From: Bryobacterales bacterium
Lineage (GTDB): Bacteria; Acidobacteriota; Terriglobia; Bryobacterales; Bryobacteraceae
DNA: 64,000 bases
Assembly (NCBI GenBank): GCA_003167255.1
Contig: PMTR01000074.1
Location: forward strand, 159,266 to 223,265
Reading direction: 5' to 3'
Shown here one piece after another: positions 363 to 40,813 of this stretch (positions within the stretch are counted from its first letter, which is position 1; each line of letters begins with the position of its first letter). The position numbers and the translations under genes are program-made. The notes below the pieces were generated by a model that saw nothing but the letters and a program-made list of their open reading frames with translations, had not been told where the DNA came from and ran no database searches.

Positions 363-489
363 GGCACTCCGGAGCCATGATTAATCAGGATCTTTATCTA
401 CCGCTCAAGCGGCGGATGTGGACCGGTCCGTCCAGTGCAAGTGTTCGATCGGGACGGTTTTCTGAGGATCGTCTGCCCTGAGTCCGGGG

Positions 490-1653: not shown

Positions 1654-2834
1654 ACCTGAATGTAATAGGTCTTGCCGGATTCGGCTTTCATGGAGAAACG
1701 GAGGTCGGAGCCGGGGGCACTCAGTTTGGGGCCAAAGCCATTGTTGGCCATTTCGGGAGTGAAAGTGGTGAGGGCGGGGATGAGGGCCTTGGAGCGGTTC
1801 TGAATCTCAATCGTGACGGTGCCGCGCGCGGAGCCGCGGAAGGAGTAATAATCGGTGTCTTCGCCGTCCATGATATTGGCTTCGACGGTTTGATCGAGGC
1901 CGATTTTGGTGGCGTTGAGGATGTCGTCGTTGGGCTCGAAAGCGTCAAAGGCTTTCATGGCAGAGACGGTAAGAGAGTAGGCGCCGGCGGTATCGATGAG
2001 GCCTTCGACGCGGAGAAAGAGAGTGGTATTGGGAGGCGGGGCGATGACTTCGCGGAGAGAAGCTCCGGGGTCCTGGGATTCCTTCGACCAGTCCAGCGGA
2101 CGGCCGTCGGCATCGTAGAGGCGGAGGCGGGGGGCGAGGCTCTGCGAGCGGTTGGCCAGTTCGACCCGCAGAAGATCGCGGGGCGCGGGCGGAGAAGTGA
2201 CGCGGAAGCAGTCGACATCGTTGACGTCGAGAGAGATTTCGGCGTCCACGGATTTGCCGAGGGAGATGACGTTGGCGAGGCGGTCGGTGCCGTTCGGTTC
2301 GACTTCGTGGGTGACTGGGTCGGCGGAGTTGCCGAGTTTGAAGCGCGCGAGATTCTGACGGACGGTGGGATACTGCAAGTCGCGGGCCAGAACCTCACGG
2401 AACGCGCCGACGGCCTTGATGCCGTCGTTGAGCTTGACGTAGATGACGCCGAGGTTGTTATAGATGACGGGAAGCTGGGCGGACTTGGCGAGGGTTTCGA
2501 GGAGGACGGCGGCGGAGGGATACTCGCCCTGGTACATGAGGTCGGAGGCGCGGTCGAAATCGTGTTCGAGGGCCGGATCGCCGAGGGGCTTGCCTTGAAA
2601 GCGGAGGAATTCCTGGCGCAGCACATTCGCTTCGGCGATGTAACCGGGGAGCGGCGGGTGGCGCGGCGATGGGCTGGTCCACCAGGAAGATATCCAGTGA
2701 GCGGAGAGGGCGACGGCGACGAGAGGGACCACCCACCAGATGCGCAGAATCCACGCCGGTCTTCTGCGGTGCCGCCGGCGGCGGGACCCTTTGCCCTGGG
2801 GTGATGCCGTCGGCTTGCTGTCGGTGGGAAGCAT
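1605..2834 (-). CDS. Membrane-anchored TPR protein with pre-peptidase C-terminal-like (PPC) domains
   Basis: N-terminal TM segment, TPR-like region (VIYNNLGVIYVKLNDGIKAVGAFREVL), two PPC-like repeats (DVNDVDCFRV, DGEDTDYYSFRG...GDYSLTIK). Confidence 0.7.
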   Translation of the reverse strand: MLPTDSKPTASPQGKGSRRRRHRRRPAWILRIWWVVPLVAVALSAHWISSWWTSPSPRHPPLPGYIAEANVLRQEFLRFQGKPLGDPALEHDFDRASDLMYQGEYPSAAVLLETLAKSAQLPVIYNNLGVIYVKLNDGIKAVGAFREVLARDLQYPTVRQNLARFKLGNSADPVTHEVEPNGTDRLANVISLGKSVDAEISLDVNDVDCFRVTSPPAPRDLLRVELANRSQSLAPRLRLYDADGRPLDWSKESQDPGASLREVIAPPPNTTLFLRVEGLIDTAGAYSLTVSAMKAFDAFEPNDDILNATKIGLDQTVEANIMDGEDTDYYSFRGSARGTVTIEIQNRSKALIPALTTFTPEMANNGFGPKLSAPGSDLRFSMKAESGKTYYIQVWSQSKTAGDYSLTIK

Positions 2835-2881
2835 GGTTTGGTCCGGGCGATCCAGGGTCGCTTTGCTACAATCCTAATTCT

Positions 2882-4000
2882 ATGCGCTTTGCGCGCGGCC
2901 GCGTCGCGAAAAAGGGGGTGAAGTTGGCCGCGTTGGCGTGCGGGCTGGGGCTTCTGGCGTTTCCTCAAAAGAAGAAGGACGAAACCCAGACGTTACAACT
3001 GCCCAGGGACCTTCCCACGGCGGTGGAAGGCAATCCGCGAAAGTTCATGTTCCATGTGACGCCGCTCTCGGCCAAAGGCCTGCTGACGAAGCAGGTCCGC
3101 GACGCGCTGAGCGCGCTGATCCGCGAAGCCAAGGGCGATTCCATTCTGAAAATCCGGGCTTTTGTGGCGGGTTCGGGCGATGCGCGGCGTGTGCGCGACC
3201 TGGTGAGCGAATTCTTCACGGAGCGCCGGGAGGCGCTGCCGGTGCTGAGCCTGGTGCAGGCGGGAGGGCTGCCGCTGGAAGGGGCGCAGGTGGTGCTGGA
3301 GGGAATCGCCGAGGGCAAGAAGGAGGTGAGCCGCTACGGGCTGGCGCTGATCTCGGCGCAATCGGCGGTGTCGGAAAACCCGCTGGACGCGGCGGGGCCG
3401 TTGGCCGTGAAATCGCTGGGTGCGCTGCGAGTGGCGGTGAAAGCGGCGGGTTCGGAGCCGGCGGATGTGGCGCGGGTGACGTGTTTTCTGAGCTCGCTGG
3501 ACGGGCTGGATGCGACGCGAAAGCTGGTTGTGGCGGAATTTCCTGGCGCGGCGGCGAACTTCGTCCAGACGCAACGGGCGCCGGCCAGGGCGCTGGCGGC
3601 ATGCGAAGCGGTGGCGCGGTTGCGCCGGGAGGTGGGTGCGCCGCTGGCCGTTTTGAACCCGGAAGGCCTGCCGCGGGATGCGGGACAATCGCAGGTGGCC
3701 TTGGTGGGCGCGTCGAAAGTGGTGCTGACGGGCTCGCAGGTGTCGTTTGGATTCGCGGAAAAGGACGCGCGGCTGGCGTTCGAGCGGCTGAAGAAATCGC
3801 TGGAGCAGGCCGGAGCATCCACGCGGGGGGTGGCGTTCGCGGGGTACTATGCGCTGTCATCGGGCATCGCGGAGCAGGTGCGGAAAGTGCGGGGGGAATT
3901 CTTCGACGCCGCGCGGCCGCCGGCGGGTTCGCTCGAGCCGGTGGAGGGTTTGCCTTCGATGGACGCCGGCTTCTCGATGGATGTGGTAGCGGTGAAGTAG
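2882..4000 (+). CDS. Secreted protein with RidA/YjgF-like domains
   Basis: ATG at 2882; RidA-like segments (SLGALRVAVKAAGSEPADVARVTCFLSSLDGLDATRKLVVAEF and a second C-terminal unit). Confidence 0.6.
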   Translation: MRFARGRVAKKGVKLAALACGLGLLAFPQKKKDETQTLQLPRDLPTAVEGNPRKFMFHVTPLSAKGLLTKQVRDALSALIREAKGDSILKIRAFVAGSGDARRVRDLVSEFFTERREALPVLSLVQAGGLPLEGAQVVLEGIAEGKKEVSRYGLALISAQSAVSENPLDAAGPLAVKSLGALRVAVKAAGSEPADVARVTCFLSSLDGLDATRKLVVAEFPGAAANFVQTQRAPARALAACEAVARLRREVGAPLAVLNPEGLPRDAGQSQVALVGASKVVLTGSQVSFGFAEKDARLAFERLKKSLEQAGASTRGVAFAGYYALSSGIAEQVRKVRGEFFDAARPPAGSLEPVEGLPSMDAGFSMDVVAVK

Positions 4001-4069
4001 GGGACCACGGCAACCACGGCAGGGGACGGGATGGCGGTTGGCGGATCGCGGTAGAATGAGGACAACGCC

Positions 4070-5152
4070 GTGACTACCATTTTGCGCGCTACCGCGATTG
4101 CCTGCGCCGGAGGGCTATTGCTATCGATGGCCGGCTCCCCGCAACAGGCGCAGCAGAAACCGCCGGCTCAGCAGCAGACGCAGCAGCAGCAGACGGCTGT
4201 GCCGACCATCCGGGTGACGGCAACCGAAGTCATCCTGCCGGTGACGGTGACCGACGATAAAGGCCGGTTTATCGACAACCTGGAACAAAAAGACTTCCGG
4301 ATCCTGGACGAGGGCCGGGTGCAGAGAATCAAGTTCTTCAGCCACGACCCAAGGCAGCCCACCGTAATCGGCTTTTTGGTGGACATGAGCAACAACAGCA
4401 CCATTCACTGGCAGAATTACAAAGACGCCGTGAAAGAGATGGTTTGGGGTCTGTTGCCGAACGATAAGAATTATACAGGTTACCTGATTTCCTTCTCCAC
4501 CACGGCGGAGCTGTTGGTGAATACAACTTGGGATCCGGACAAGCTGACGGCGCAAGTGGACCGGATGAAGCCGGGCGGCGGGGCGGCGTTGTTCGATGCG
4601 GTCAAGCGGGCGTGCACGGACCGTCAACTGATTCCGGGCGAGCCGTACCAGCCGCGGCGCATCATTGTGGTGTTTGGGAACGGGCACGACAGCGCGAGCG
4701 AGTATACGATTGACCAGGTGATCGAGCTGGCGCAGCAAAAGCTGGTGACGATTTACGGGGTGAGCACGGCGGCCTACGGGATGGAGGATCCGGATCGGGA
4801 CCAGTTGGAAAAGCTGGCCACGACGACGGGCGGGCGGGTATGGTATCCGCTGGACAACCCGTATTCGGAGGTTTCGGGGTTTCTTTCGCAGCCATCCGAC
4901 GAAGGCAATTACGCCTTGCATGTCGGGACCGGCGGGTATGCGGCAGCCATCAATTCCGCCATTTATAAGGCGGTAGGCGCACTCGAGGGTGAGATCACGA
5001 CGCAGTACATTCTGCGGTACCAGCCGGAATTCGATGCGGTATCTGCGAATAAAGACAAGCATCGGATCAAGGTGGAGATTCCGACGCTGCCGCCTGGATC
5101 TTATAAAGTGCTCACGCGGCCCGATTATTATCCCAACCGGATCGGGCAGTAG
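4070..5152 (+). CDS. VWFA-related domain secreted protein
   Basis: VILPVTVTDDKGRFIDNLEQKDFRILDEGRVQRIKFFS...VIGFLVDMSNN...GGGAALFDAV, typical of acidobacterial VWFA-related proteins. Confidence 0.8.
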   Translation: MTTILRATAIACAGGLLLSMAGSPQQAQQKPPAQQQTQQQQTAVPTIRVTATEVILPVTVTDDKGRFIDNLEQKDFRILDEGRVQRIKFFSHDPRQPTVIGFLVDMSNNSTIHWQNYKDAVKEMVWGLLPNDKNYTGYLISFSTTAELLVNTTWDPDKLTAQVDRMKPGGGAALFDAVKRACTDRQLIPGEPYQPRRIIVVFGNGHDSASEYTIDQVIELAQQKLVTIYGVSTAAYGMEDPDRDQLEKLATTTGGRVWYPLDNPYSEVSGFLSQPSDEGNYALHVGTGGYAAAINSAIYKAVGALEGEITTQYILRYQPEFDAVSANKDKHRIKVEIPTLPPGSYKVLTRPDYYPNRIGQ

Positions 5153-6516: not shown

Positions 6517-7905
6517 TCATGCTCCTTGATTCTCCCGGCTTGGTGCTGTGAGACCGTGTTTCTCCATGCGGTATATCAGCGTCCGCCGGCTGATGTCCAG
6601 GTACCGTGCCGCCTGGGTCTGGTTCCAGTCGAATTTCACTAGCGAGCGTAGGATCAGTTCCTTCTCCACCGCCTCCAAGCTGATTCCTTGCGGTGGCAGG
6701 GCCAACTGCAAGGCCTCCAGCGCCGGACGTTCGGCGCGCAGGAAATCGGGCAGGTCGGCCAGCAGCACCTCATCCCCGGTGGTCAGGACAATCAAGCGCT
6801 CCAACACATTCTCCAGCTCGCGCACGTTCCCCGGCCAGGGGTATCCGCAGAAATGTTGAAGAAGCGACGAGTCCAGCCGGAGCTCGTTGCGATTCTGCTT
6901 GGCTTTGATCTTGATGAACAGGTTCTGCACCAACTCCGGAATATCATCGACGCGGTCGCGGAGCGGCGGAAGTTCCAGCGTGATCACCGCCAGCCGGTAA
7001 TACAGATCCTGCCGGAAGGCCGCATCCTCGATCATGCTTTGCAGGTTGCGATGCGTGGCGGCAATGATGCGCACATCCACTTCCATCGTGCTGGTCGCAC
7101 CGACTTTATCGATCTGCCCTTCCTGGATCAGGCGAAGAATTTTCACTTGGAGTTCGGGCGGCAGTTCGCCGATCTCATCCAGAAAAAGCGTTCCCTGGTC
7201 GGCCATTTCCACCTTGCCGGCCTTGTTGGCCATAGCGCCGGTAAACGATCCCTTGCAGTAACCGAACAGTTCGCTCTCCAGCAGGTCCTTGGGGATCGCG
7301 CCGCAGTTGATGGTGACAAACGGCAGGTCCTTCCGCCGGCTATTACGGTGTATGGCTTTGGCGAGCAGCTCCTTCCCAGTGCCGGTCTCGCCTCGTATCA
7401 GAACAGTGGAGTTGCTCTGCGCCGCGCGGGAAGCCAGGTCCAGCACATATAGCAGCTTTTGCGACTTGCCTACAATGCTTTCGAATCCGTACTTGCGATC
7501 CAGCGTGGTGCGCAGATAGCGCACTTCCTCCAATAGGTCCTGATGCTCCAGGGCGCGGCGTACCACGATTGCGAGCTGGCTGTAGTCTAGTGGTTTAGTG
7601 AGGTAGTCGTAAGCGCCTTCGCGCATGGCGAGGACGGCCGACTCCACAGTTCCGTACGCGGTGATTACCAGCACCGCAGTCTCCGTGTGCTCCTTGCGCA
7701 CCCGCCGGAGCAACTCCAGGCCGGACATACCCGGCATCTTCAGATCGGTAAGCACCACCGGTATGGCACGCGACGCCAGAATCTCCAGCGCTTCCGGTCC
7801 GGAAGCCGCCACCAGTACCTGGCAGCCGATCTCCTCCAGTTGCATCTCCATGACGCGGCGAAGGCTCTGATCGTCATCGACTACAAGAACTGTTCGGCGA
7901 TTCAT
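6517..7905 (-). CDS. NtrC-family sigma-54-dependent response regulator
   Basis: Receiver (VLVVDDDQSLRRV...VLTDLKMPGMSG), AAA+ GETGTGKE and ELFGYCKGSFTGA, C-terminal Fis-like HTH. Confidence 0.92.
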   Translation of the reverse strand: MNRRTVLVVDDDQSLRRVMEMQLEEIGCQVLVAASGPEALEILASRAIPVVLTDLKMPGMSGLELLRRVRKEHTETAVLVITAYGTVESAVLAMREGAYDYLTKPLDYSQLAIVVRRALEHQDLLEEVRYLRTTLDRKYGFESIVGKSQKLLYVLDLASRAAQSNSTVLIRGETGTGKELLAKAIHRNSRRKDLPFVTINCGAIPKDLLESELFGYCKGSFTGAMANKAGKVEMADQGTLFLDEIGELPPELQVKILRLIQEGQIDKVGATSTMEVDVRIIAATHRNLQSMIEDAAFRQDLYYRLAVITLELPPLRDRVDDIPELVQNLFIKIKAKQNRNELRLDSSLLQHFCGYPWPGNVRELENVLERLIVLTTGDEVLLADLPDFLRAERPALEALQLALPPQGISLEAVEKELILRSLVKFDWNQTQAARYLDISRRTLIYRMEKHGLTAPSRENQGA

Positions 7906-9071
7906 CGGGCGGCACCCTGCCTGCGAGGCAGCAGCATCTGAAATCTGGCGCCCTTCGGAGCCGCGGGTTTGGCCGCGATCGAGCCGCCGTGCTGATCAAC
8001 AATCTGGTGAACCACCGAGAGCCCCAATCCGGTGCCATCCTCTTTGGTGGTGAAGAAGGGGTCGAAGATCCGATTCATTGCCTCAGGCTCCACTCCCGGA
8101 CCTTCATCCCTGACTTCGACGCAGATCCGGTCATCATCCTGGTAGACCGCCACCACGACCTCGCCGGATTCGGGCGAGGCATGGATCGCGTTGAGCGTCA
8201 GGTTCAACACGGCCTGTTTGATCTGTTCCGGATCGCATTCCACATTGGGGATCTGATCGGGCAGTTCCAAACGGATGCGAACGGCCCTCCGTCCGATGGC
8301 GTGCGCGGCCAGGTCCACTACCGCCTCAAGCACGCTACGGATATCGATGACCTGGTACTGCGGCGTGCGCGGCCGGGCGAAGTCGAGGAATTGCGACAGC
8401 AGCCGGTTCAGCCGTTCGCACTCTCTCAAGATGATCTCCACGCATTCATCACGCCGCTGGTCGGAGGTCTGCGCCCGCTGCAAGAGGCCAGCCGCCCCGG
8501 CCAGGCTGGCCAGAGGATTGCGGATCTCGTGTGCCAGGCCGGCCGAGAGCTGACCGACGGCCGAGAGGCGCTCCGCCCTCTTAACCTGTTCAAAGCTGTC
8601 CTGTAGCTCTCGATAGACCTCCGTGAGCCGCAAAGTGGTCTGCTCCATCGCCAAACGATGTTCGCGCTCCCGTTGCGCCAGCATTCCGGTGAACACTCCC
8701 GCCGCGCAAAAAGCCAGGATGTCAAGCAGTTGGTCACCACCGTAGGACCGTATCACCGAGAGCAGATGAAGGCTGTAGGGCAGGCTGGAAATCCCGGCCA
8801 ACAGACCTGCAAACAATCCGCCACGCCAGCCGAAGTACATGCCCGCGAAGACAATTGGCAGATAGTACAGGTGTTGCAGAATGTTGTGCCAGTGCCCGAG
8901 AGTGAGCGGCAGGGCCGCATGCAGCACGCCACAGAATAGAATGCCCGCCAGGATGGCGATCCAGCGAACATACGCCAAGCGTTCGGGCTCGGCCCGGAGC
9001 CACAGAAAGGGTTTCAAATCAGATGCCATCTCCAGTTTATCCGGAAGCGCCCGCAAGGTCGCACTTACCAC
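7902..9071 (-). CDS. Sensor histidine kinase
   Basis: TM region, H-box GLAHEIRNPLASLAGA, ATPase motifs; 4-bp overlap with the downstream regulator gene. Confidence 0.92.
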   Translation of the reverse strand: MVSATLRALPDKLEMASDLKPFLWLRAEPERLAYVRWIAILAGILFCGVLHAALPLTLGHWHNILQHLYYLPIVFAGMYFGWRGGLFAGLLAGISSLPYSLHLLSVIRSYGGDQLLDILAFCAAGVFTGMLAQREREHRLAMEQTTLRLTEVYRELQDSFEQVKRAERLSAVGQLSAGLAHEIRNPLASLAGAAGLLQRAQTSDQRRDECVEIILRECERLNRLLSQFLDFARPRTPQYQVIDIRSVLEAVVDLAAHAIGRRAVRIRLELPDQIPNVECDPEQIKQAVLNLTLNAIHASPESGEVVVAVYQDDDRICVEVRDEGPGVEPEAMNRIFDPFFTTKEDGTGLGLSVVHQIVDQHGGSIAAKPAAPKGARFQMLLPRRQGAAR

Positions 9072-9173
9072 CTTGCGGGCGCTCCTTACCCTGTAGAAGT
9101 TTTGAGTCTACCTGAGGTCTTGAAGCGGGGTGTGACGACAGGCCCCGCCCAGCGCCGATGAAGGCTAACCTGC

Positions 9174-12100
9174 TCAGAAGACGTACTTCAGGCTCAATTG
9201 CAGGCGGCGCGGATAGCCGGCCTGGTTCGCAGCGGTGATCCTTCCGAAGGTGGCGGACGTGGGACCCATCTGCGGCGATGGGAACCCGGGGTGGTTGAAG
9301 GCATTCAATGCCTCCGCCCGGAATTGGATCTCTTTGCCTTCGCTGATGCGGGTGTTCTTGATGAGAGCGAGGTCCACGTTGTTGCTGTTCCGGCCGCGGA
9401 TCTGGGAGAACCGCAGCGGCCAGGTACGCAGGTTGTTCACCAACTGGTTTGCGGAAGCGGTTTCAAAACCGGCCGTGTTGAACCAGCCGTCGACCGTGCG
9501 CTGGTCGGCAGGTTTCACGATGTTGGCCGGATTCCCGTAGTAGAGCATGTTACCCCAAGCCAGCGGGAAGCCGACCTGGTATCCGAAGATACCGGAAAGC
9601 TGCCAGCCGCTCACGATGCGCGAAGCCACTGGGTCGTCGCTGTTCAGCAACGCCTTGCCCTTGCCGAACGGAAGTTCCGCCACGCTGCTGATGGAGAAGC
9701 GGTGCGGCACATCCTGGTCGGAGATCACCCGGAGGGGCGCCTTGTCTCCCGCGTTGAGAAGTTCATCGGCCTGCATAAACTTCGAGAACGTGTAATTCCC
9801 GGTCACCATGAAGCCCTTGCTGAATCTCTTCTCCACGACCGCAGTCAAGCCGTGATACCAGGAATAGCCCGAGTTCACGCTGGTGTTGACTGCCCCAAAT
9901 TCCGGGTAAGGTGTCAGGAGACCCGATCGGGCAATCGTGGTGTTGGTGAAGGTGCCCTGCGTGTTTCCCGCCGGTCCCAAGCCATAGAACGGGTTGGTGA
10001 CGGTTCCCGTCAAGTAGTTGTTGGTAGTGTTGTCCCGCACTGGGCTGGTGCTCAGGTACTGATCCAGCAACGGGTTCAGGCTGACGATGTTGGGATTGCC
10101 GGTGGGGTTGAGGTCGATGTGTATGGTCTTGTTGCCGGTGTAGTTGACGTCGAGCAGAATGCCGCCCGGGAACTGGTGCTGTATGCCCAGTTCCCACCGG
10201 AACACTCGCTGGGGTTGGGGATTCTGATTGAAGAACGAAATGGCCTGCCCCAGAAACGTCTGGTAACCCGCCGCCGTTCCGACCGGCTCGGTGATGCCGT
10301 TGGGGAACGGGTTGGAGAGGGTGCCGATGAAGTTGATGTTGTCCGTGGTGGGAACCACATTGGTGTTCTGGCTGAAGCCGCTCTGGATCACGTCGCTGCG
10401 GCGCTCGCCCAGAAAGCCGTAGAAGATTCCGAATCCGCTGCGCAGCACGGTTTGGCTGCCGATCTGGTACGCCAAGCCGATACGCGGCATGAACTCGGTT
10501 TTCGGAGTATTGTACAAGCCGCTGGGATTGCCGTTGATTCCCGCAAAGGTGAGACCGCCTTTCGCCGCAAACTGGGCGGCGGGGAGTTGCGCCAACGGAG
10601 CCTTGGCATAAATGGTCTGGGCCGCCGCCGAGAACGGCTGCACATACGTGGGATCGAAGCCCAGAACGCTGCGGTTGTAGCGCTCGTGGAGCGGTTGCTC
10701 GAACTCATAGCGCAATCCGAGGTTGACGGTCAGCCTGGGGGTCACTTTCCAGTCGTCCTGTACGAAGAAACCCCATGAATTGGATTGTTCCGCGTAAGAA
10801 GCGGAGCGCGCCACGTTGCTGGAAGATGAGGGCAGTCCGAGCAGCAGCGCGGCGACCGATTGCCCGATGCTGCCGGGGGAAACCGGGGAGTTGTCCAGCG
10901 GTCCGCGAGTCCAAGTGGAGTCGAAGTTGAAGGTGCCGGTCTGCTGGAAGCCGAAGAACTTGTCGTTTTCCTGGTAGGCCCGGAATTCCAGCCCGGTACG
11001 GATTGAGTGCGCTCCGAGGATCTTCGTCAAGGTGGAACTGAAAGTGTGGTTCATCACGGGGCGGTTCTCACCCGCCGCCGAGGCGGTGGGAATGTAACCG
11101 CTCATGTTGAATTGGGGGAACGTGCGGACGTCTGTGGGGATGGCTTTGTTGTACGCGGCGGGGAAACCCAGATTGGTGAGGTCGAATCCGTCCGCGGCCC
11201 GGTTGCCCTCCTGGTACCGGATGAAACGGCTGTAGCTGTACCTGGTGTTCAGGACCGTGGTCGGCGAAATAGTCGCCACGTGGTCGAATACCGCCGAGCG
11301 CGCCAGGAACTGGAAGGTCACGCCGGTCGCGATGTCGTTGAAGTAGTTGTTGTAGGTGCTGTCGCGCCGGTAGATGCTGACCCGCGCAAAAATGCGCTGC
11401 CTGTCGCTGAAGTTGTGGTCCACGCGCCAGCTCAGGTTGTAATACTTGGCTTTCTCCGTGACGCTGGAGTCCAACATGTTGTTAGTCCCGTCCGGGTTGC
11501 CGGCGCTGAGGGGCGTTGGGAAATAGGACAATACGGCTTTGCCCACGGGGTTGATCATTGAGGGAGGAATGATGTTCCCCGCGAACGGATCCTCCTGGTA
11601 CCGGCCGGCGGTGGATGCCGCGCGCCGCGAGAACGGATTGTAGATCTGGTAGCTGGCGCCTGTGCCGGGCACCGCCAGCAGCGCGGAAAAGTCGCCGGTC
11701 CTTTCGGCCGCGGTCGGAACGGTGTTGGTGGTGTCGTCATGCCGCGGGCGCGAGTCGTGGATCCCTTCGTAGCCAAACATGAAGAACGTCTTGTTCTTGC
11801 CGTTGTAGACCTTGGGGATGTACACCGGGCCGCCGAACGATCCGCCCCACCGGTTGAACATGAAGTCGGGACGGGCCTTGCCCGCTGAATTGCCGAAGAA
11901 ATCGTTGGCCCAGAAGCTCGGGCGCTGGAACGTGTAGCCCGCGGTGCCGTGGAAAGCGTTGGATCCCGATTTCAAACTGATGTTGGTCACGCCGCCCATA
12001 GTTTGCCCGAACTGTGCGTCGAATGTTGCGGTCTGCACCTTGAACTCCTGCACGATGTCGGTGGGCGGAACATAGGCGGCAATCACCTGGTTGCCGTTGG

Positions 12101-12710
12101 CCGTGGCGGTCGTCGGGGCTCCATCGAGTGTGACGTCGCTCAGGTTGCCGCGAGAACCGGCCATGGCATAGCCCACAATATGGGTCGGTTCGAACGGCCG
12201 GTCCAGACGGGCGTCCCCAATGAACGCAACTCCGGAGGCCGACCCGATCAATTCAAACGGATTGCCGTAGGAGAGCGGAAGATCCGCTACCCGCCTGGAA
12301 TCCACCACCGTGCCCACGGAAGCACTTTCCGTGTTCATGAGCGGCGCTTCCGCCGTCACCGTGACGGACTGTTCGGAGTTGCCGACTTCCAGCACCAGAC
12401 TGATTTCCAGACGATCCGCAACCCGGATCTCAATGTTGTCGCGCACCACTGTTTTGAAACCGTGCGCCGAACCCTCGACGCGATACACGCCGGGGATCAG
12501 ATAAGTTGCCTGGTAAAATCCCGTCTCGTTAGTCGTCAGGCTAGTCTTGGTCCCCATGGCGGTATTGGTAACCACCACTTTGGCGCCGGGAATGAAGGCG
12601 CCACTGGGGTCGCTGACCTTGCCTGCGATGTTTCCCCTGGTTTCCTGTGTCCAGCCGATAGCCGTCAGGAAACACAGGATAGCAATAAGCGAAAAAATAC
12701 GACTAAGCAT
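9174..12710 (-). CDS. TonB-dependent receptor/Oar-like outer membrane protein with N-terminal carboxypeptidase-regulatory-like domain
   Basis: Signal peptide, GNIAGKVSDPSGAFIPGAKVVVTNTAMGTKTSLTTNETG, plug and beta-barrel features; start at internal Met (MLSRIFSL) rather than ORF start 12764. Confidence 0.88.
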   Translation of the reverse strand: MLSRIFSLIAILCFLTAIGWTQETRGNIAGKVSDPSGAFIPGAKVVVTNTAMGTKTSLTTNETGFYQATYLIPGVYRVEGSAHGFKTVVRDNIEIRVADRLEISLVLEVGNSEQSVTVTAEAPLMNTESASVGTVVDSRRVADLPLSYGNPFELIGSASGVAFIGDARLDRPFEPTHIVGYAMAGSRGNLSDVTLDGAPTTATANGNQVIAAYVPPTDIVQEFKVQTATFDAQFGQTMGGVTNISLKSGSNAFHGTAGYTFQRPSFWANDFFGNSAGKARPDFMFNRWGGSFGGPVYIPKVYNGKNKTFFMFGYEGIHDSRPRHDDTTNTVPTAAERTGDFSALLAVPGTGASYQIYNPFSRRAASTAGRYQEDPFAGNIIPPSMINPVGKAVLSYFPTPLSAGNPDGTNNMLDSSVTEKAKYYNLSWRVDHNFSDRQRIFARVSIYRRDSTYNNYFNDIATGVTFQFLARSAVFDHVATISPTTVLNTRYSYSRFIRYQEGNRAADGFDLTNLGFPAAYNKAIPTDVRTFPQFNMSGYIPTASAAGENRPVMNHTFSSTLTKILGAHSIRTGLEFRAYQENDKFFGFQQTGTFNFDSTWTRGPLDNSPVSPGSIGQSVAALLLGLPSSSSNVARSASYAEQSNSWGFFVQDDWKVTPRLTVNLGLRYEFEQPLHERYNRSVLGFDPTYVQPFSAAAQTIYAKAPLAQLPAAQFAAKGGLTFAGINGNPSGLYNTPKTEFMPRIGLAYQIGSQTVLRSGFGIFYGFLGERRSDVIQSGFSQNTNVVPTTDNINFIGTLSNPFPNGITEPVGTAAGYQTFLGQAISFFNQNPQPQRVFRWELGIQHQFPGGILLDVNYTGNKTIHIDLNPTGNPNIVSLNPLLDQYLSTSPVRDNTTNNYLTGTVTNPFYGLGPAGNTQGTFTNTTIARSGLLTPYPEFGAVNTSVNSGYSWYHGLTAVVEKRFSKGFMVTGNYTFSKFMQADELLNAGDKAPLRVISDQDVPHRFSISSVAELPFGKGKALLNSDDPVASRIVSGWQLSGIFGYQVGFPLAWGNMLYYGNPANIVKPADQRTVDGWFNTAGFETASANQLVNNLRTWPLRFSQIRGRNSNNVDLALIKNTRISEGKEIQFRAEALNAFNHPGFPSPQMGPTSATFGRITAANQAGYPRRLQLSLKYVF

Positions 12711-12787
12711 AGTTGCTCCTCTAACCAAAAGTTTGCCTGCGCCAGTTCGAGTTGCACGTGCCATTCCAGGCCGCCATTGCGGGAAAT

Positions 12788-12816
12788 GCCCGATCGGGCT
12801 GTCCCAAATGGGACAG
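12788..12816. promoter_or_regulatory. Adjacent palindromes GCCCGATCGGGC and CTGTCCCA-AA-TGGGACAG upstream of the TonB receptor gene
   Basis: Read directly: 12788-12799 and 12799-12816. Confidence 0.5.
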
Positions 12817-13236
12817 CTAGGAGGAGGGCCGTACGCAAAACGGACATCCCTATCTCACTTTGAGGGTGCTGTTGCCCCCGCGTCCTTATTGGTCCTGCAA
12901 TTGCTACTCCATGCAGATCAGGAAAGAGCGGCTCTTACCTCGGAGGACGACTATAGGGGAGCGCTGCTCACGCCGGGCGGGAGGCCGTTCGACCGAGACG
13001 GTCTCCGCGCTTGGCGTTTCCCGTTCAGTCCCCGTCAGTTCCCGCCATTGCGCTCCTGTCATCTCCGCCCGGAATGGCAGCCGCAGGCGCTCGCCATCTG
13101 GAGAAGATCGTCAATCTCATACTGGACGCCAATCTTGAACTCGAGTATGGCTCTCCGGCGATTGGCAAAACGCTTCGGGGTGGAAGCAAACGTGCAGTTC
13201 CTTTTCCGGAAACAGACCAAGAGGAGGTCACTGAAG

Positions 13237-13596
13237 ATGAAGATCACTTTTATTCTCACCCTTGCGGTATTCGGACTATTGGTCCGCACTGCGTATGGCG
13301 ATGCGCCCAAGAGCTATAGCGTTGTGCTCTCGAGTGCGACAATCGGAACGGCTGAACTCGATGGGGGTGATTACACGATGCTTGTTCACCGCGACGGCAA
13401 TGAACCCAAGGTTCGCCTTACGGAGCTCAAAACCGGCAACGCAACTGATGTCGCCGCCAAGGTGGAAGGCGTGGACAAGAAGTTTGAGGACACCGAAGTT
13501 GTTTCTCGAGAAGAAAACGGCGTCAAACGGATCACTGAGGTCCACATCGGTGGAACCAAGCTCCGGATTGTCTTTCAGCAAGGTTCCTCCCTCTAG
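13237..13596 (+). CDS. Small secreted hypothetical protein
   Basis: MKITFILTLAVFGLLVRTAYG signal peptide followed by a compact 119 aa protein. Confidence 0.65.
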   Translation: MKITFILTLAVFGLLVRTAYGDAPKSYSVVLSSATIGTAELDGGDYTMLVHRDGNEPKVRLTELKTGNATDVAAKVEGVDKKFEDTEVVSREENGVKRITEVHIGGTKLRIVFQQGSSL

Positions 13597-13670
13597 CTTG
13601 CAGCGGTAACCGCCAGCCAGCGGAGGCGAGGGTCCCTAAGTACGTCACTTCAGAAGTTCGCTAACGTATC

Positions 13671-13783
13671 CAGGACCGCTTGCTGGCGCGCGGTTCCGAT
13701 CCGAGCCGCGACTTGTCGCACGACCGTGAGGGAGCGATCTTCGCAGAATGCGAAAGTGTACTTATGAAACGGTGTACTAAGGA
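13671..13783. repeat. Dispersed repeat family 1, copy A
   Basis: Clear similarity to 32369-32483 (CAG-ACCGCTTGCTG-CGCGCGG...CCGATC...GAGCCGCG...CGTGAGGGAGCG-TCTTCGC...GTATGAAACGGTG-ACT-AGGA). Confidence 0.8.
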
Positions 13784-13823
13784 ACTGCGCAAAAATAACT
13801 TCACATTCTCTGAGTGCGACCAT

Positions 13824-13932
13824 GTGGCGCACGCACTCGTGCGTGCCGTGTCGGCACTCCTGCCGACACGCTGGGGTGGTCGACGCGCGTCGCGATGAGT
13901 CGCGACGCGGCACGCAGGAGTGCGTGCGCCAC
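13824..13932. repeat. Dispersed cloverleaf repeat family 2, copy 1
   Basis: 24-bp TIR with one mismatch plus internal hairpins GTGTCGGCA-ctcc-TGCCGACAC and GCGTCGCGA-tgag-TCGCGACGC. Confidence 0.85.
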
Positions 13933-14080
13933 GGTTCGGCTCTGTATGTTTATTCTTGCGCGATCCCTAAGCAAGGTTTTGCGCGCATCGCACAGGCGCT
14001 ATCCGGGCTTCCAGAGGCGGTCCACGCCACTTTGCAGCGGCAATCGCAATCAAGTCAAGAGTCTCTGATGGGAGGATCAA

Positions 14081-14227
14081 ATGTTCACTAGCTTGGATGA
14101 AGAGATCAAACGCGACGATCAAGCCTCAACAACGCCGCGAGAGCGCCGGTTGTTCTACATCATGGTGCTGTTGATATCGGGTATCCTGTTCAGCGGCTTA
14201 TACGCCGGAATCAAGTATTTCGAATAG
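14081..14227 (+). CDS. Small single-TM membrane protein (48 aa), absent from the ORF track
   Basis: MFTSLDEEIKRDDQASTTPRERRLFYIMVLLISGILFSGLYAGIKYFE; GGGAGGATCAA upstream of ATG. Confidence 0.65.
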   Translation: MFTSLDEEIKRDDQASTTPRERRLFYIMVLLISGILFSGLYAGIKYFE

Positions 14228-14515
14228 CCTCGTAGACAAGAGAGCCGCGCAGGAGACGAAGACAAGCGGCCCCCTTAGTGGTTTTCGAGGCACAGGCATC
14301 GGCTCCCGCCGGAGGCGTCTTCATCCCATTGATGTTCCCGTTTCGGCCGATGGCGGCCAAACGCAGGTTTCTGGTGTAAGCTCTGGCGGCTCCTCGATGT
14401 AAGGCTCTCGCTGGGCACAGCCAGCAGGAGGGAGAGGCTACAGACTCGGGTCGCGCCGCCGTTGGAATGAGGGTTGGTCCGAACGGGTGCACCATCACGA
14501 GGAAAGAGGTGAGGA

Positions 14516-15013
14516 ATGAAGAACCAGGAATCGGTAACAGCATGGTGCGCATGGCCTGGCGAAAGCGTCGGTGCTGCTCCCACGCTTTTGATTGTCGGTC
14601 CGGTTGAGAATAACTGCGGCCGCGACCCCATTTTCGATCGTCTCCCGTGGCCGGCACACCGTGTACGGAACTGCCTGGAGGTGGCTCTCCATTTGCTTGA
14701 TAACCATCCTTGCATTGTCGTCTGTGAGCGGGACCTTGCAGATTGCGACTGGAAAGATGTTCTGGAGATAGCGCTGTCGCTGCCCAACCCGCCGCCCGTC
14801 ATTGTGACGTCCCGCCTGGCCGACGAGTACCTGTGGGCGGAAGTCCTGAACCTCGGCGGCTACGACGTGCTTGCGAAGCCGCTGGACAAACAAGAGGTGA
14901 GCAGGGTTTTGAACCTCGCCTGGGGGCATTGGGCAAACCAGGCATACCCGGCGGAACATCCCAAGTCGGCGCCTCTGCGAAGAGGAGATTTAGCAAAATG
15001 TTCAGTAGCTTGA
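14516..15013 (+). CDS. Receiver-domain-like protein (atypical response regulator)
   Basis: LLIVGPV...CIVVCERDLADCDWKDVLEIAL...VIVTSRLADEYLWAEVLNLGGYDVLAKPLDKQEV; RBS GGTGAGGA. Confidence 0.65.
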   Translation: MKNQESVTAWCAWPGESVGAAPTLLIVGPVENNCGRDPIFDRLPWPAHRVRNCLEVALHLLDNHPCIVVCERDLADCDWKDVLEIALSLPNPPPVIVTSRLADEYLWAEVLNLGGYDVLAKPLDKQEVSRVLNLAWGHWANQAYPAEHPKSAPLRRGDLAKCSVA

Positions 15014-34636: not shown

Positions 34637-35479
34637 ATGAACGTCGAGATCGAAGGCGTCACACTGCATCTGGCTCATCCGGATGAACTGTCCGCCAAAT
34701 GGGTTGGGCAGGGCGAGCTGATGCGGCAGTTGCTGGCCGCCTGGATGGTGGTGAACGATCAGGACCTGCCCATGAATCCGCGCCTGTTGGGCAAGCCCGG
34801 CGTGGGCAAGACGACGCTGGCGTATGCCGCCGCCCGGCGCATGGGCCGCGAGGTCTACATCCTGCAGGCCACCATGGATACGCGTCCGGAGGATCTGCTG
34901 GTGACGCCGGTGATCGAGGGCGCGGGCAGTTTGCGCTATGTGGCGTCGCCGCTGGTGACCGCCATGCTGCGCGGCGGAATCGCCATCATCGACGAAGGCA
35001 ATCGCATGAGCGAGAAAAGTTGGGCCAGCCTGGCGCCGCTGCTCGACAACCGGCGCTACGTGGAGTCCATCGTGGCCGGCATCAAGATCAAGGCTCACCC
35101 GCACTTCCGCCTGGTGGCGACCATGAACGACGACGCCTCCACCTTCGAACTGCCCGAATACATCCATTCCCGGCTGCAGCCGCAGATCTTCATCGATTTT
35201 CCGGAACGCGACGAGGAGTACCAGATCCTGAAAGAGAACCTGCCATTCGCCGAAGAGCGCATCCTCGAGTACGTGACGGATTTCCTGCAGACGGCCCACG
35301 CGGCCGATGAGCGGTTTACGGCGCGCGACGGCATCAACGTGGCGCGGTTCGCCATCAAGCTCAAAAGCCTGGCCACCGAACGGACGCACGAGACGGCGGC
35401 GCTCGAAATCGCGGTGGTGCAAGTGCTGGGAGAGGAAGCGTTGCGCTATGTCCCAAGAGAGCGACCTTCGGCTTCCTGA
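34637..35479 (+). CDS. MoxR-like AAA+ ATPase
   Basis: NPRLLGKPGVGKTTLAYAAARRMG (Walker A), GIAIIDEGNRM (Walker B), RLVATMNDD. Confidence 0.85.
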   Translation: MNVEIEGVTLHLAHPDELSAKWVGQGELMRQLLAAWMVVNDQDLPMNPRLLGKPGVGKTTLAYAAARRMGREVYILQATMDTRPEDLLVTPVIEGAGSLRYVASPLVTAMLRGGIAIIDEGNRMSEKSWASLAPLLDNRRYVESIVAGIKIKAHPHFRLVATMNDDASTFELPEYIHSRLQPQIFIDFPERDEEYQILKENLPFAEERILEYVTDFLQTAHAADERFTARDGINVARFAIKLKSLATERTHETAALEIAVVQVLGEEALRYVPRERPSAS

Positions 35480-37283
35480 CGCGGGGAGTCTCCAGCGGGG
35501 ACGCTTCCAGTACTTCCCGGTGGCGCCGGGCCGGCTGGAGTTCGCGATCGAAGTGCGGCGCGCCATCCTGCGCGACCGCCCGCAAGTGATCGCGGTGGAA
35601 TTGCCGGTCACTCTTCAGTCGGCGTGGCTGCGGGCGGTCGCGCGGCTGCCGGAAATCTCACTGATCTTTTATCCCGACGAATCGGCCGGCGGAGACCGCG
35701 CCGTATACGTCCCGATTGAGCCGGCAGACCCCTTCACCGAAGCCATCCGCACGGGCCTCGAAACGGGCGCGGAAATCGTTTTCGCCGATCCCGACGCCGG
35801 CGAACGGCCCCATCTCAAAGACTCCTATCCGGATTCCTACGCCGTCCGGCATGTGGGCCTGGATCGTTACGTCGAGGCGTACCGCGTCTACCCGCAGCCG
35901 CGCTCCGAAGAGCTGGCGCGCCATGCCGCCGGAATCGCGTGGAAATTGCAGGGCACCGACCCTTCGGCGCGCGTCCTGGTGGTGATTTCGCTCAACTTGC
36001 TCGATCCGGTACTGGACGCCATGGAGGAGCCGCAGGCACAGCCCCTGGCGCGGACTCATCGCGACGGAATCGAGCTGCTCAATGCCCACCCCGAATCGCT
36101 GGGCGAAGTCTGCGCCGAGTATCCGCAACTGCAGTGGCGATACGAAGCCTACCGGCCGCTGCTCGCGGATGACAAGCTGATCGACCGGCGCCACGCGCAA
36201 CTGGCCGTGCTGCGCGAGGCGGAGAAGGATTACGAAGCCAATACCGGCGAGCGCATCGCGCATTGGCAGCGGCGGTTGCTGGCGCGCTATTCGCGCAACC
36301 TGGCGCTCGCCGGCAGCGATTTGAGCCCGGGCCTGTTCGACCTGGCCGTGGCCGCGCGCGGCGTGGCCGACGATAATTACGCCTGGGAGGTCTGGGAAGC
36401 CGCCAGCCGCTACCCGCCGCAACAGACGGCCTGCGACCTGATGACGGTGCGCATCGCCGGCGACGAAGTCTGGATGGACACGCGCCGCATCCGCCTGCGC
36501 CGCCGTCTGCCCAGCACCAAGCGCCGCCTGCGGCCCATCGGATTGAAGGCCCGCAAAAAGGAAAAGATTCCCGGCGAATGGGCCAGCCAGTTGAACGGCA
36601 CGAGCATCTGCTCCTATCCGCCCGAAGACCTCATCATTGAGGACTACGGCCGCTTCCTGAAGAAGAAAGGCAAGAGCATCCTGTCCGAAGAGCGGGTGCG
36701 AGTCGAGCCCTTCACGACCTCGATCCTCGACGGAATCGACATGCGCGAGACCATCCGCAAATGGTACGAAGGGCGCATCTGGGTGCGCCAGTTTCAGAAG
36801 ATACACGGCGAAGTGGGATCGATCGTAGTGATCTTCGATGACGACCGCGACGACCGTTACCCCTATACCACGACGTGGCTCGGTGAGAACCAAAACGAAT
36901 CGGATATGGCGTTTTACTCCACGTTGCCGTTCGATCACCTGGTGGGCCCAGGCATCGGCCGCGCCGAATACGGCGGCTTCCTGATGAGCCTTCCGGCGCG
37001 CCGCATGTACGACGTATGGCAGGACGCCGATTACGAATTGGCGGAATCGAAATCCGAGCGGTTGCTGCTGGCGGCGCTCGATTATTCCATCCACCACTAC
37101 GTGGTCTATGTGGCCGCCAAGCCGCCGCGCTCGATCTTTAAGACCATCGCCTCACGGGTGGGCCGCACGGTCATCTATATCCCCATCGGTCAGCTCTCGC
37201 CGGTCTCGCTCAAAAAGATCCGGGTGGTGCACGTGCTCGACGGCTACGACAAACGCGAGACCGCGAAGGACTACTTGTGGTGA
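35448..37283 (+). CDS. Large uncharacterised protein; N-terminal part TraB/ChaN-like
   Basis: RRAILRDRPQVIAVELPVTLQSAWLRAVARLPEISLIFYPDE...AVYVPIEPADPFTEAIRTGLETGAEIVFADPD; ATG at 35448 overlaps the moxR end by 32 bp. Confidence 0.6.
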   Translation: MSQESDLRLPDAGSLQRGRFQYFPVAPGRLEFAIEVRRAILRDRPQVIAVELPVTLQSAWLRAVARLPEISLIFYPDESAGGDRAVYVPIEPADPFTEAIRTGLETGAEIVFADPDAGERPHLKDSYPDSYAVRHVGLDRYVEAYRVYPQPRSEELARHAAGIAWKLQGTDPSARVLVVISLNLLDPVLDAMEEPQAQPLARTHRDGIELLNAHPESLGEVCAEYPQLQWRYEAYRPLLADDKLIDRRHAQLAVLREAEKDYEANTGERIAHWQRRLLARYSRNLALAGSDLSPGLFDLAVAARGVADDNYAWEVWEAASRYPPQQTACDLMTVRIAGDEVWMDTRRIRLRRRLPSTKRRLRPIGLKARKKEKIPGEWASQLNGTSICSYPPEDLIIEDYGRFLKKKGKSILSEERVRVEPFTTSILDGIDMRETIRKWYEGRIWVRQFQKIHGEVGSIVVIFDDDRDDRYPYTTTWLGENQNESDMAFYSTLPFDHLVGPGIGRAEYGGFLMSLPARRMYDVWQDADYELAESKSERLLLAALDYSIHHYVVYVAAKPPRSIFKTIASRVGRTVIYIPIGQLSPVSLKKIRVVHVLDGYDKRETAKDYLW

Positions 37284-37440
37284 GGCGGGGGAACTTAATG
37301 CGGTTGACTGAAGCGCTGCAGCGCGGCACAAGCGAGGTTTGGCGACTCTGCGGTCAAGTGAACTCCACTCGGATGACGCGCCGCTTGCTACACTGCCATC
37401 TGGGTGGTTATAAATAGGAGGTGCCCTTACTCTCGGCCTT

Positions 37441-39723
37441 ATGCTGAATAACATTTTTCCGGTAGACGACCTTCGGTCACTTGCGCGGAGAAAGAACAAC
37501 TCGTCGGAGTTGAAGAGTCTACCAAAGAGCGCCGATTCTAGTCTCCTGATAAGTGACGGATGGCAACAGCATCGCGAGGGAGCGACAACGGTCAGACTAA
37601 TCCGCAAGAAGACGAAAAGCGTTCTGCTTGCGGACAGGGTTTGGTGCCTGCTGTACAAGATGGGCTTCACACACCTCTCGGGTGAGGGCGGAGCGCAGCT
37701 TCTGCTCGATCCGAAGAGCGAGGGTGGTGCCTACAACCAAATCGATGTTGTCGGGCTGGATCCAGAAGTTGCTGTGGCCATAGAGTGTAAATCGGCTGAA
37801 CAGCCTCGCAAGTATGGTGACTTCCAAAAGGACCTTGCGAAACACGCGCTAATGCGTCAGCGATTCGCCAGTTCTGTTGCGGCTCTGTTCCCGGCGCCCC
37901 ACAAGAGGGTCTCCATCATCGTTATGTTCACGTGGGATTTCATTTTGACGGATAATGATATTCAACGTGCCAAGAACGAAAATGTTGTCTTGCTCAATGA
38001 AAAGGACCTCAACTACTACGAACTTCTTGCTGGCCATCTAGGGCAGGCCGCCAAGTACCAGTTCTTTGCCGACATGTTGCCCGGGAAGCGAGTGCACGGC
38101 CTAGAGCTACGCATCCCCGCGCTGCAAAGCAAATTTGGCAAGTACACCTATTACACATTCTCAATTGCTCCCGAGTACCTGCTCAAGATCGCCTATGTTT
38201 CGCATCGAGCGAAGGGCAAAGCAGCTGACGTTGACACCTACCAGCGGATGATCAAGAAAGCTCGACTCAAGAAGATTCGCGAATACATTGATGCGAATGG
38301 CATCTTTCCCACCAACATCGTCATAAGTCTCGAGGGAAAGAGGCACGTTAACTTCGAACCTTGGAAGCAAACGGGTAGAGAGGAGGGCGCAAAACACGGC
38401 ACTCTGATCCTCACACCGTCCTACAGGTGTGCATGGATCATCGATGGTCAGCACAGGCTCTTTGCCTATTCCGGCCATGACAAGGCGAAATCGAGTCATC
38501 TCAGTGTCCTGGCCTTTGAAGGGTTGCCAGCCAGTAAACAAGCGCAGTTGTTCATCGATATTAACCACGAGCAGAAGAGTGTTAAGCGGAGCCTGCTTCA
38601 GGAGCTTTACGCGGAGTTGAATTGGGATGCCGAGGACGACGATAAGAGGGTCAATGCAATCGTATCTAAAGCGGTGCAGGCCCTAAACGAGGACAAGGAA
38701 TCGCCGTTTTATGGGCGTATCCTGTTGGCTGACGAGGGTCGGACTGACACCCGATGCATCACTCTAGAAAGCCTGTTCCGCACTTTGAATCAGCCGGGTA
38801 TGTTTGTGATCAAGCCAGCCGTGGATTACGGTCCATTTTGGACAGCGGAGAACGAGACCACCCTTAAGCGCGTGATCCAAGTCATCAATGGCTGGTTCGG
38901 CTTCATCCGTGATGCGAGCACTGAATGGTGGGCGCTTGGCCAGGCTGAGGGCGGCGGGCTTTCGATGAACGACGGCGTTAGCATATGCATGACCGTCCTG
39001 CGGAGCATTTTCAGTTATCTGCTTGAGAAGAAACACCTAAAGCTTATTCATTTTGCAAACAGCGAGCTAGTGGCTGTATTACGGCCCTATGGCCAGGTGC
39101 TCGGACAACACCTGTCCAGCTACTCGGAGGAACAGCGCCGTGAGTTTCGCGTCGGCGCAAGAGGCAACCAAGGACAGACGGCCACGCGAAGAAAGTGTGA
39201 GAAGGCGCTAAACGAAAAGTTCTCTGACTTCGAGCCACCGGGCTTAGCTGAGGCCCTTCGTGCCCAAGAGGCACAGACGAACGAGCAGGCCTATAGGGTG
39301 ATTGTCGACCTCGAAAAGCGACTCTTTGAGTTTGTCCTCGGGACTCTGAAGTTGGAGTTTGGTAACGATGAGGCAGAGACATGGTGGTACTCTGGTGTCC
39401 CGCCGCAGATTCGCAAGAAGGCAGCAGAACGGTTCGAAGAGGAAAAGGGGAAAGGCAAGAAAGAGGGCTACGTAGACCTTATTGATCTGCGTACTATAGT
39501 GGTCAGCAACTGGCCTCTTTTCCAAGACTCCTTGGGATTTGGCAGGTCGGGTAACAAAGACGCGAAGACGGATTGGATGCACAAGCTGAACGAAGCACGC
39601 AAGATTGTCATGCATGGGACCAAGCAACAGACCGTCAGCTTTGAGCAACTCGCGCAGTTGCGGGAGTACGATCATATGCTTACGGAGAAGCTCAATGGTC
39701 AGGAAGCCGATTCCGAGTCATGA
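37441..39723 (+). CDS. DGQHR-domain (DndB-like) protein fused to N-terminal PD-(D/E)XK nuclease-like and C-terminal HEPN-like regions
   Basis: IDVVGLDPEVAVAIECKSA (D...ExK); CAWIIDGQHRLFAYSG; C-terminal NEARKIVMHG (Rx4H). Confidence 0.8.
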   Translation: MLNNIFPVDDLRSLARRKNNSSELKSLPKSADSSLLISDGWQQHREGATTVRLIRKKTKSVLLADRVWCLLYKMGFTHLSGEGGAQLLLDPKSEGGAYNQIDVVGLDPEVAVAIECKSAEQPRKYGDFQKDLAKHALMRQRFASSVAALFPAPHKRVSIIVMFTWDFILTDNDIQRAKNENVVLLNEKDLNYYELLAGHLGQAAKYQFFADMLPGKRVHGLELRIPALQSKFGKYTYYTFSIAPEYLLKIAYVSHRAKGKAADVDTYQRMIKKARLKKIREYIDANGIFPTNIVISLEGKRHVNFEPWKQTGREEGAKHGTLILTPSYRCAWIIDGQHRLFAYSGHDKAKSSHLSVLAFEGLPASKQAQLFIDINHEQKSVKRSLLQELYAELNWDAEDDDKRVNAIVSKAVQALNEDKESPFYGRILLADEGRTDTRCITLESLFRTLNQPGMFVIKPAVDYGPFWTAENETTLKRVIQVINGWFGFIRDASTEWWALGQAEGGGLSMNDGVSICMTVLRSIFSYLLEKKHLKLIHFANSELVAVLRPYGQVLGQHLSSYSEEQRREFRVGARGNQGQTATRRKCEKALNEKFSDFEPPGLAEALRAQEAQTNEQAYRVIVDLEKRLFEFVLGTLKLEFGNDEAETWWYSGVPPQIRKKAAERFEEEKGKGKKEGYVDLIDLRTIVVSNWPLFQDSLGFGRSGNKDAKTDWMHKLNEARKIVMHGTKQQTVSFEQLAQLREYDHMLTEKLNGQEADSES

Positions 39724-39772
39724 TTGCCTGGGGGAGCGTCGGTACCCGCAGTGACCTGTCTAGGCACATGGT

Positions 39773-40678
39773 ATGAGTTCAAGTGCACCTGTCATTCCCT
39801 CTCCGCAGGCCAGAGCCAAGCCATTCTTGAAGTGGCCGGGGGGGAAACGTTGGCTGACCCGGCACCTGCTGGGTCTCTTGAATGGGTCTAGCTATCGGCG
39901 ATACTTTGAACCATTCCTCGGTGGCGGAGCTCTGTTTTTTGCTCTTCAGCCGGAGAAGGCTGCACTATCCGACGTCAACAGCGACTTGATTAATGTCTAT
40001 GTTCAAGTGAGGAACCGTCCACATGAGCTGATCCGCCGACTGAAGGACCTTTCGGTAGACAAGGCAACTTACGCCCGCTTCCGTAGCGCGGACCCTAAGC
40101 TGAATCTTGACCGCGCGGTTCGGTTCTTGTATTTGAATCGCACCGCCTTTGGTGGTATGTATCGCTTGAACCGGCAGGGTTCGTTTAATGTTCCATTTGG
40201 CGGCGGCCAGCGCACGCCAGAGCCGCTCTGGAATGAGAATCTCCTGCAGGAAGCATCGAAGGCTCTCAAGGGTGCCCAACTGCAGACAAGTGATTTTCAG
40301 GAGCTGCTAGCTGACGCAGGGGAGGGGGATCTCGTTTACTGTGATCCGACCTATACGGTCGCCCATAATAATAACGGTTTTGTGCGGTACAACGAACGCA
40401 ACTTCAGTTGGGATGATCAGAAGCGACTCGCAGACACCTGTCAGCGGCTCGCCCGTGAAGGTGCAACCGTACTTGTCAGCAACGCGGACCACGACGACAT
40501 TATCCGGCTCTATGATCCGACGAGAGTCTATCGCCTGGATCGAATGAGTGTACTGTGTCCAGCTTCCGAGAAACGCAAACCGACAACGGAGCTCCTCCTG
40601 TTGTTTGATTCCCGCCGAACAAAACGTCCTGCCCAAAGGGTTCGCAGACCATTTGGCCGTATTACGCCCGATGCGTAG
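39773..40678 (+). CDS. Dam-type (D12 class) DNA adenine N6-methyltransferase
   Basis: PFLKWPGGKRWLTRHLL, YFEPFLGGGALFFAL, LNRTAFGGMYRLNRQGSFNVPFG, LVYCDPTYT. Confidence 0.9.
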   Translation: MSSSAPVIPSPQARAKPFLKWPGGKRWLTRHLLGLLNGSSYRRYFEPFLGGGALFFALQPEKAALSDVNSDLINVYVQVRNRPHELIRRLKDLSVDKATYARFRSADPKLNLDRAVRFLYLNRTAFGGMYRLNRQGSFNVPFGGGQRTPEPLWNENLLQEASKALKGAQLQTSDFQELLADAGEGDLVYCDPTYTVAHNNNGFVRYNERNFSWDDQKRLADTCQRLAREGATVLVSNADHDDIIRLYDPTRVYRLDRMSVLCPASEKRKPTTELLLLFDSRRTKRPAQRVRRPFGRITPDA

Positions 40679-40813
40679 AAATGCCGATTGCCGCTCAACG
40701 AGTGAAGTGAACACCATCGGGGCTTAACCCAACCCAGGCCTAGCCCAGGCCTAACCCGCATGTCTCGTCGGCTTTCTGCTGGCGCGAAACCTGGCGGGAA
40801 CAGCCCCCTAATG

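Follow-up and report, generated by a model that had tools for sequence, protein, structure and literature searches.

The window analysed here (64,000 nt of Bryobacterales bacterium assembly GCA_003167255.1, contig PMTR01000074.1, positions 159,266 – 223,265) carries an acquired, low-GC island of two genes. These encode a 760 amino acid (aa) protein that joins a predicted PD-(D/E)XK nuclease fold, a DGQHR domain and a Swt1-like HEPN domain, and a Dam-family adenine methyltransferase. The two genes occur together in distant phyla, and the DNase active site of the larger protein is intact in nearly all homologues that have a methyltransferase partner. We give a probability of about 0.6 to the pair being a compact restriction-modification and abortive-infection module. 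Such a two-gene system would need a single polypeptide for both restriction and abortive infection, with simple adenine methylation as its safeguard, and would be small enough to be transferred by prophages.

The central part of the 760 aa protein is certainly a DGQHR domain, with profile scores of E=1.3e-41 (TIGR03187) and 3.2e-15 (Pfam DndB), and it belongs to the only DndB-family protein found in the host genome. In Foldseek searches against viral models (BFVD), the domain matched ParB, the N-terminal part of GmrSD and 'sulfur modification' proteins, in agreement with PMC4619093, which connects DGQHR with GmrS and with the ParB/sulfiredoxin fold. The motif DGQHR, a YQR triplet (residues 267-269) and F371/N375 are invariant among the homologues, of which the full-length ones share 27-70% identity. 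At the N-terminus, the AlphaFold2 (AF2) model of the protein (predicted local distance difference test score 83.9, predicted template modelling score 0.58) shows an alpha/beta domain, the limits of which were taken from predicted secondary structure. Its top Foldseek matches in the PDB were Cdn1, VC1899, Card1 and AF1548, all of the PD-(D/E)XK fold, and Pfam Hjc and Card1_endonuc match the N-termini of several family members, so that the prediction of a PD-(D/E)XK nuclease fold is supported. The C-terminal domain, folded alone, forms a confident helical bundle. When isolated it matches Pfam HEPN_Swt1 at 0.00014 (22.5 bits, under the gathering score of 27.5 bits), while the best family member reaches 5e-5, and the region matches the PADLOC profile PDC-M34B at 1e-13. 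Neither the full-length profile nor that of the HEPN domain retrieved more than chance-level matches among the sequences of solved structures. The preliminary description of this region, made by reading the DNA, had proposed a PD-(D/E)XK-like N-terminus, a DGQHR core and a C-terminal Rx4H motif, and all three hold, the last of them (R720..H725) through the sub-threshold HEPN_Swt1 and the PDC-M34B matches.

The 301 aa partner matches TIGR00571 at 1.7e-63 (214.8 bits; cut-off 114.85) and Pfam MethyltransfD12 at 3.8e-46, as expected of the D12-class adenine methyltransferase that had been suggested. The closest solved structures are DpnII methylase 1 (5e-48) and then E. coli Dam (2e-31). An arginine and a proline of the recognition hairpin are conserved among the adjacent partner methyltransferases, and the target is presumably GATC, judging from the E. 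coli Dam structure. No second Dam-type enzyme was detected in the host genome (7.35 Mb) at E<1e-5. As in type II-like restriction-modification, a methyltransferase and a predicted nuclease are encoded together, with active-site residues intact.

A methyltransferase gene is adjacent in 14 of the 18 homologues with usable flanks, the window copy included (locus numbers, L, are used below where copies must be told apart). Three arrangements occur: a co-directional methyltransferase gene on either the upstream or the downstream side, and a convergent one. In Paenibacillus sanguinis (L002) the Dam-type gene is upstream and overlapping; in two further Paenibacillales (L077, L078) it is also upstream. 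The pair is also present in four further genomes from the host phylum (convergent in L019, with the methyltransferase upstream in L020 and L022 and downstream in L182) and in six viral or proviral contigs (upstream in L025 and L026, downstream in L028-L031). The two halves of the L022 protein come from separate contigs, L022 and L021, of the same genome and were joined by inference; L023, L183 and L184 run into contig edges and were left out of scoring. Co-occurrence across genomes, a check that the preliminary description had proposed, is thus seen across phyla, with order and strand varying and adjacency kept; neither this result nor the predicted nuclease fold at the N-terminus gives the refutation that the preliminary description had named. 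Many copies lie on prophage or viral contigs or beside restriction-type genes: a terminase at L028, an S24-type repressor with HSDR_N and FRG genes at L027, Mrr at L022 and SF2/PLD helicases at L077 and L078. Viral contigs scanned directly with the window protein gave no match, nor did a viral scan with two alphaproteobacterial homologues, whereas alignment-based scans did find copies.

The remaining 4 of the 18 homologues are without a methyltransferase, and all four have a radical S-adenosylmethionine (radical SAM) gene in or beside the locus. They are found on a Novosphingobium plasmid (L016), an Agrobacterium/Rhizobium plasmid (L017/L018), a proviral contig (L027) and in one genome from the host class (L181). 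The radical SAM enzymes of L027 and L016 are 41% identical and have weak similarity to B12-binding radical SAM enzymes. The D102/E115/K117 triad of the PD-(D/E)XK domain is intact in 13 of the 14 methyltransferase-paired proteins, that of the window among them, and broken in all four of the radical-SAM-paired proteins, where K117 is replaced by R or T and L027 has D102N in addition. The arginine and histidine of the HEPN motif are intact in all scorable homologues except those of L077 and L078, which have lost RX4H and retain both the DNase triad and the methyltransferase; no scorable homologue is without both nuclease motifs. As a correlation over few independent events, this pattern strongly suggests a DNase that is kept only where methylation protects the host, together with a separate RNase effector. 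The role of DGQHR (DndB-like) domains is debated, and the survival of active sites according to partner offers a direct test of how such domains read marks and control nucleases.

On the reading that we prefer, the Dam-type enzyme would methylate adenine at a short, probably GATC-like site and so mark self DNA, while the 760 aa protein would bind or scan DNA through its PD-(D/E)XK and DGQHR domains. The DGQHR domain, being ParB/sulfiredoxin-like, is probably able to hydrolyse nucleoside triphosphates (NTP), and unmethylated invader DNA may provoke NTP turnover there that releases the nucleases. The PD-(D/E)XK domain would then cut the unmethylated DNA, and the HEPN domain would act as a second line by cutting RNA and stopping growth. 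A survey of the superfamily (Anantharaman et al. 2013, PMC3710099) suggests a role as second-line suicide effectors for HEPN domains joined to restriction enzymes or ATPases but to no methylase. A methylation-linked restriction or abortive system had been put forward in the preliminary description, and this view is strengthened by the link between DNase integrity and the methyltransferase; a defensive, presumably anti-phage, role is what the genomic context suggests.

Several observations weigh against this reading. The association between triad integrity and partner type has a Fisher p=0.0016, a value that overstates it, the partner swap amounting to about two independent lineages (the tree calls for no fewer than two partner changes). 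L002 retains its methyltransferase yet has E115V, and since L027 is sister to L002, decay of the DNase may predate loss of the methyltransferase at L027. Motif IV is DPTY in the window methyltransferase and in its closest relative, that of L019 (63%), while the other partners have DPPY; activity of the enzyme is a prediction from its sequence. With the HEPN domain alone, Foldseek returned nothing at E<0.001, with Csx1 and Csm6 among the weak matches, and the HEPN assignment therefore rests on profiles and the motif. Finally, the phylogenies of methyltransferase and effector correspond only loosely (Mantel r 0.39, p 0.016), and strict co-evolution of the pair was rejected on this ground. The methyltransferase has therefore probably been exchanged while the association persisted.

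Other explanations account for parts of the evidence. The DGQHR domain could instead read the methyl mark itself, so that methylated host DNA stimulates the NTPase and arms the nucleases against invaders. In the related DUF262/DGQQR protein SspE, GTP hydrolysis licenses the nuclease after mark recognition: the phosphorothioate that its own operon places on DNA stimulates the protein, which goes on to nick DNA (PMC13251355). Since licensing in SspE follows mark recognition, a mark-armed mechanism has to be considered here, and a mark reader would also fit the replacement of the partner by another putative modifying enzyme in two lineages. On its own, such licensing leaves the decay of the triad in the copies lacking a methyltransferase unexplained, and we regard it as rather improbable. 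A system of abortive infection only, with HEPN the sole effector and the PD-(D/E)XK and DGQHR domains merely binding DNA and sensing methylation, appears less probable again. Retention of RX4H wherever the triad is broken (L002, L016, L017, L027, L181) is what it would predict; L077 and L078, with triad and methyltransferase but no RX4H, speak against it, as does the full triad of most methyltransferase-paired proteins.

The pair could also be regulatory or addictive, the DGQHR protein controlling expression of the methyltransferase, as has been proposed for DndB, or the methyltransferase acting as antitoxin of a maintenance module. DndB has been reported as a negative regulator of modification (PMC4507180; discussed in PMC10853773), and the pair is found on mobile elements. 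Regulation would not, however, need the nuclease and HEPN motifs that are conserved in distant homologues, and a radical SAM enzyme can take the place of the partner, which makes this explanation unlikely. Chance proximity of an orphan phage-type Dam enzyme to an unrelated mobile gene might be suspected, since Dam-family enzymes abound on mobile elements, with 2455 plasmid records, but adjacency persists in many unrelated loci despite reshuffled orientation. It is also very unlikely to have arisen by accident because the single enzyme of this type in the whole host genome is the one beside the 760 aa gene, and we consider a chance pairing highly improbable.

The partner swap itself admits a broader, tentative interpretation, namely that one PD-(D/E)XK-DGQHR-HEPN chassis serves different self-marking enzymes, either Dam-type or a radical SAM enzyme with a novel mark, and that with a change of mark the DNase is mutated off, leaving the RNase as principal effector. 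The candidate marking enzyme of the radical SAM branch would be of the B12-binding type and regularly coupled to another DGQHR protein. The branch hints at a DNA modification that may be undescribed and that under the shared-chassis interpretation would be an epigenetic one. A conserved cassette of a radical SAM gene (B12-binding type) and a HATPase gene occurs in L016 (nt 10323-14463), L017 (nt 10482-14705) and L181 (nt 7232-10429), and in L016 and L017 it also holds a second, short DGQHR protein. On plasmids, nearly all close relatives of the radical SAM enzyme adjoin a DGQHR gene. The radical SAM and HATPase cassette has the appearance of a modification or defence system not yet described.

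The preliminary description had called the pair undescribed. For the protein this does not stand, since a Swt1-like HEPN-ParB fusion, Saro_3948, is already listed in Table 1 of the HEPN survey (PMC3710099) and has the same combination as the window protein; for the pairing with Dam it does, as far as the literature covered goes. The Saro_3948 entry, in the part of the survey available, mentions neither a nuclease N-terminus nor a Dam partner. Saro_3948 is very probably the pNL1 protein at L016, the sole plasmid-borne protein of this type found in that organism. The L016 copy differs in its broken triad and lack of a methyltransferase, its neighbours being radical SAM, second DGQHR, ATPase and PIN genes. 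The survey also describes MAE_28990, a HEPN protein in an operon with a ParB nuclease and a DNA methylase (PMC3710099). These are the same three ingredients, but as separate genes and with a HEPN of another family, the window protein matching HEPN_Swt1. In the open-licence literature, neither the pairing of Dam with a PD-(D/E)XK-DGQHR-HEPN protein nor the radical SAM swap was found described.

Among characterised systems, PD-lambda-5 (Vassallo et al. 2022, PMC9519451), an 'RM+Abi' system that experimentally blocks phages, is likewise compact, prophage-borne and equipped with a methyltransferase. Membership was rejected: there is no PD-Lambda-5 match to the 760 aa protein, and that of the window methyltransferase to PADLOC PD-Lambda-5_B is weak (3e-14). 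SspABCD-SspE, GmrSD and BrxU (DUF262 with HNH) share a ParB/sulfiredoxin-like NTPase core, a DGQ(Q/H)R motif and fusion to a nuclease, SspE being mark-dependent. They differ in relying on phosphorothioate or modified cytosine and an HNH nuclease, and they have no Dam, HEPN or N-terminal PD-(D/E)XK component. DndB and DpdB have the DGQHR domain (TIGR03187) in common with the window protein, which carries additional nuclease domains. Assignment to either was rejected on equivalog scores of 22.8 bits against a cut-off of 328 (DndB) and 89.9 bits against 300 (DpdB). No Dnd or Dpd partner was found near the pair, the genome-wide search having covered DndB-family and Dam-type proteins only. The PADLOC candidate PDC-M34 resembles the window protein in its HEPN region, but the M34B models (147-192 aa) span the HEPN domain only and the PDC-M34 partner was not found at the window locus.

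That the pair is an acquired, low-GC two-gene island is confirmed by an empty site in relative G1233 (L171), where about 77 bp separate the upstream gene from the sigma-54 regulator, with FlgM, an FlgN-like gene and FlgK beyond it, and the pair is absent. Since L171 has the same flanking genes without the pair, the stretch from stop codon to stop codon (Table 1) is an insertion at an intergenic site. The G+C content across the pair is 0.53-0.57 against 0.62-0.65 or so in the surroundings, and at third codon positions it is 0.635 in the 760 aa gene and 0.579 in the methyltransferase gene against 0.74-0.85 in flanking genes. The preliminary description, which had placed two same-strand genes at nt 37300-40760 with a gap of 49 bp, in DNA of lower GC and different codon choice, and had taken them for an island, was accurate in each respect. 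No flanking repeats and no tRNA gene were found around the insertion. The cassette is rare, full or partial copies of the subfamily occurring in 5 of 297 genomes in a sample of the phylum and 5 of 399 in a sample of the class, and copies in 3 of 350 from the order of Paenibacillus.

Table 1. Features of the two-gene island, in window coordinates.
Feature	Position (nt)	Strand	Evidence
Inserted stretch	37284..40813	.	lies between the stop codon of the core gene upstream and that of the sigma-54 regulator
760 aa protein, PD-(D/E)XK - DGQHR - HEPN fusion (predicted sensor/effector)	37441..39723	+	ORF (open reading frame), TIGR03187, Pfam DndB, homologues
N-terminal PD-(D/E)XK fold (predicted), residues ~60-212	37618..38076	+	AF2 model, Foldseek, Pfam Hjc/Card1_endonuc
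PD-(D/E)XK triad: D102; E115-C-K117	37744-37746; 37783-37791	+	
DGQHR (ParB/sulfiredoxin-like) domain, residues 230-450	38128..38790	+	TIGR03187, Pfam DndB, Foldseek BFVD
DGQHR motif	38443-38457	+	
C-terminal Swt1-like HEPN domain, residues 624-728	39310..39624	+	Pfam HEPN_Swt1, PADLOC PDC-M34B, RX4H
RX4H, R720-KIVM-H725	39598-39615	+	
Dam-family D12 class adenine-N6 DNA methyltransferase, 301 aa	39773..40678	+	TIGR00571, Pfam MethyltransfD12, structure matches
Recognition hairpin	~40130-40210	+	
Motif IV, DPTY	40343-40354	+	

Upstream of the pair are a MoxR-type ATPase and then a protein of 610-658 aa without a Pfam match (nt 34637-37283), which adjoins flagellar genes; its 610 aa gene is present in 38 of 151 genomes in a sample of the class and, within the host family, in nearly every genome sampled. 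Downstream, on the opposite strand, are the sigma-54 regulator, then FlgM and FlgK.

Some neighbours of the homologues elsewhere also deserve mention. Near the main pair on two proviral contigs (L025, nt 12248-13730; L026, nt 10848-12351) there is a DndB-family (DGQHR) gene with a small gene for a GIY-YIG-type nuclease, and in L031 two different Dam-type genes (nt 6933-7709 and 10177-11085) stand on either side of one DGQHR-HEPN gene. Beside the L077 and L078 homologues, which have lost the HEPN motif, are superfamily 2 helicases with a PLD nuclease (ResIII/DUF3427; L077, nt 335-4431; L078, nt 9548-12742), accompanied in L077 by an HNH gene, and these neighbours are possibly a replacement effector.

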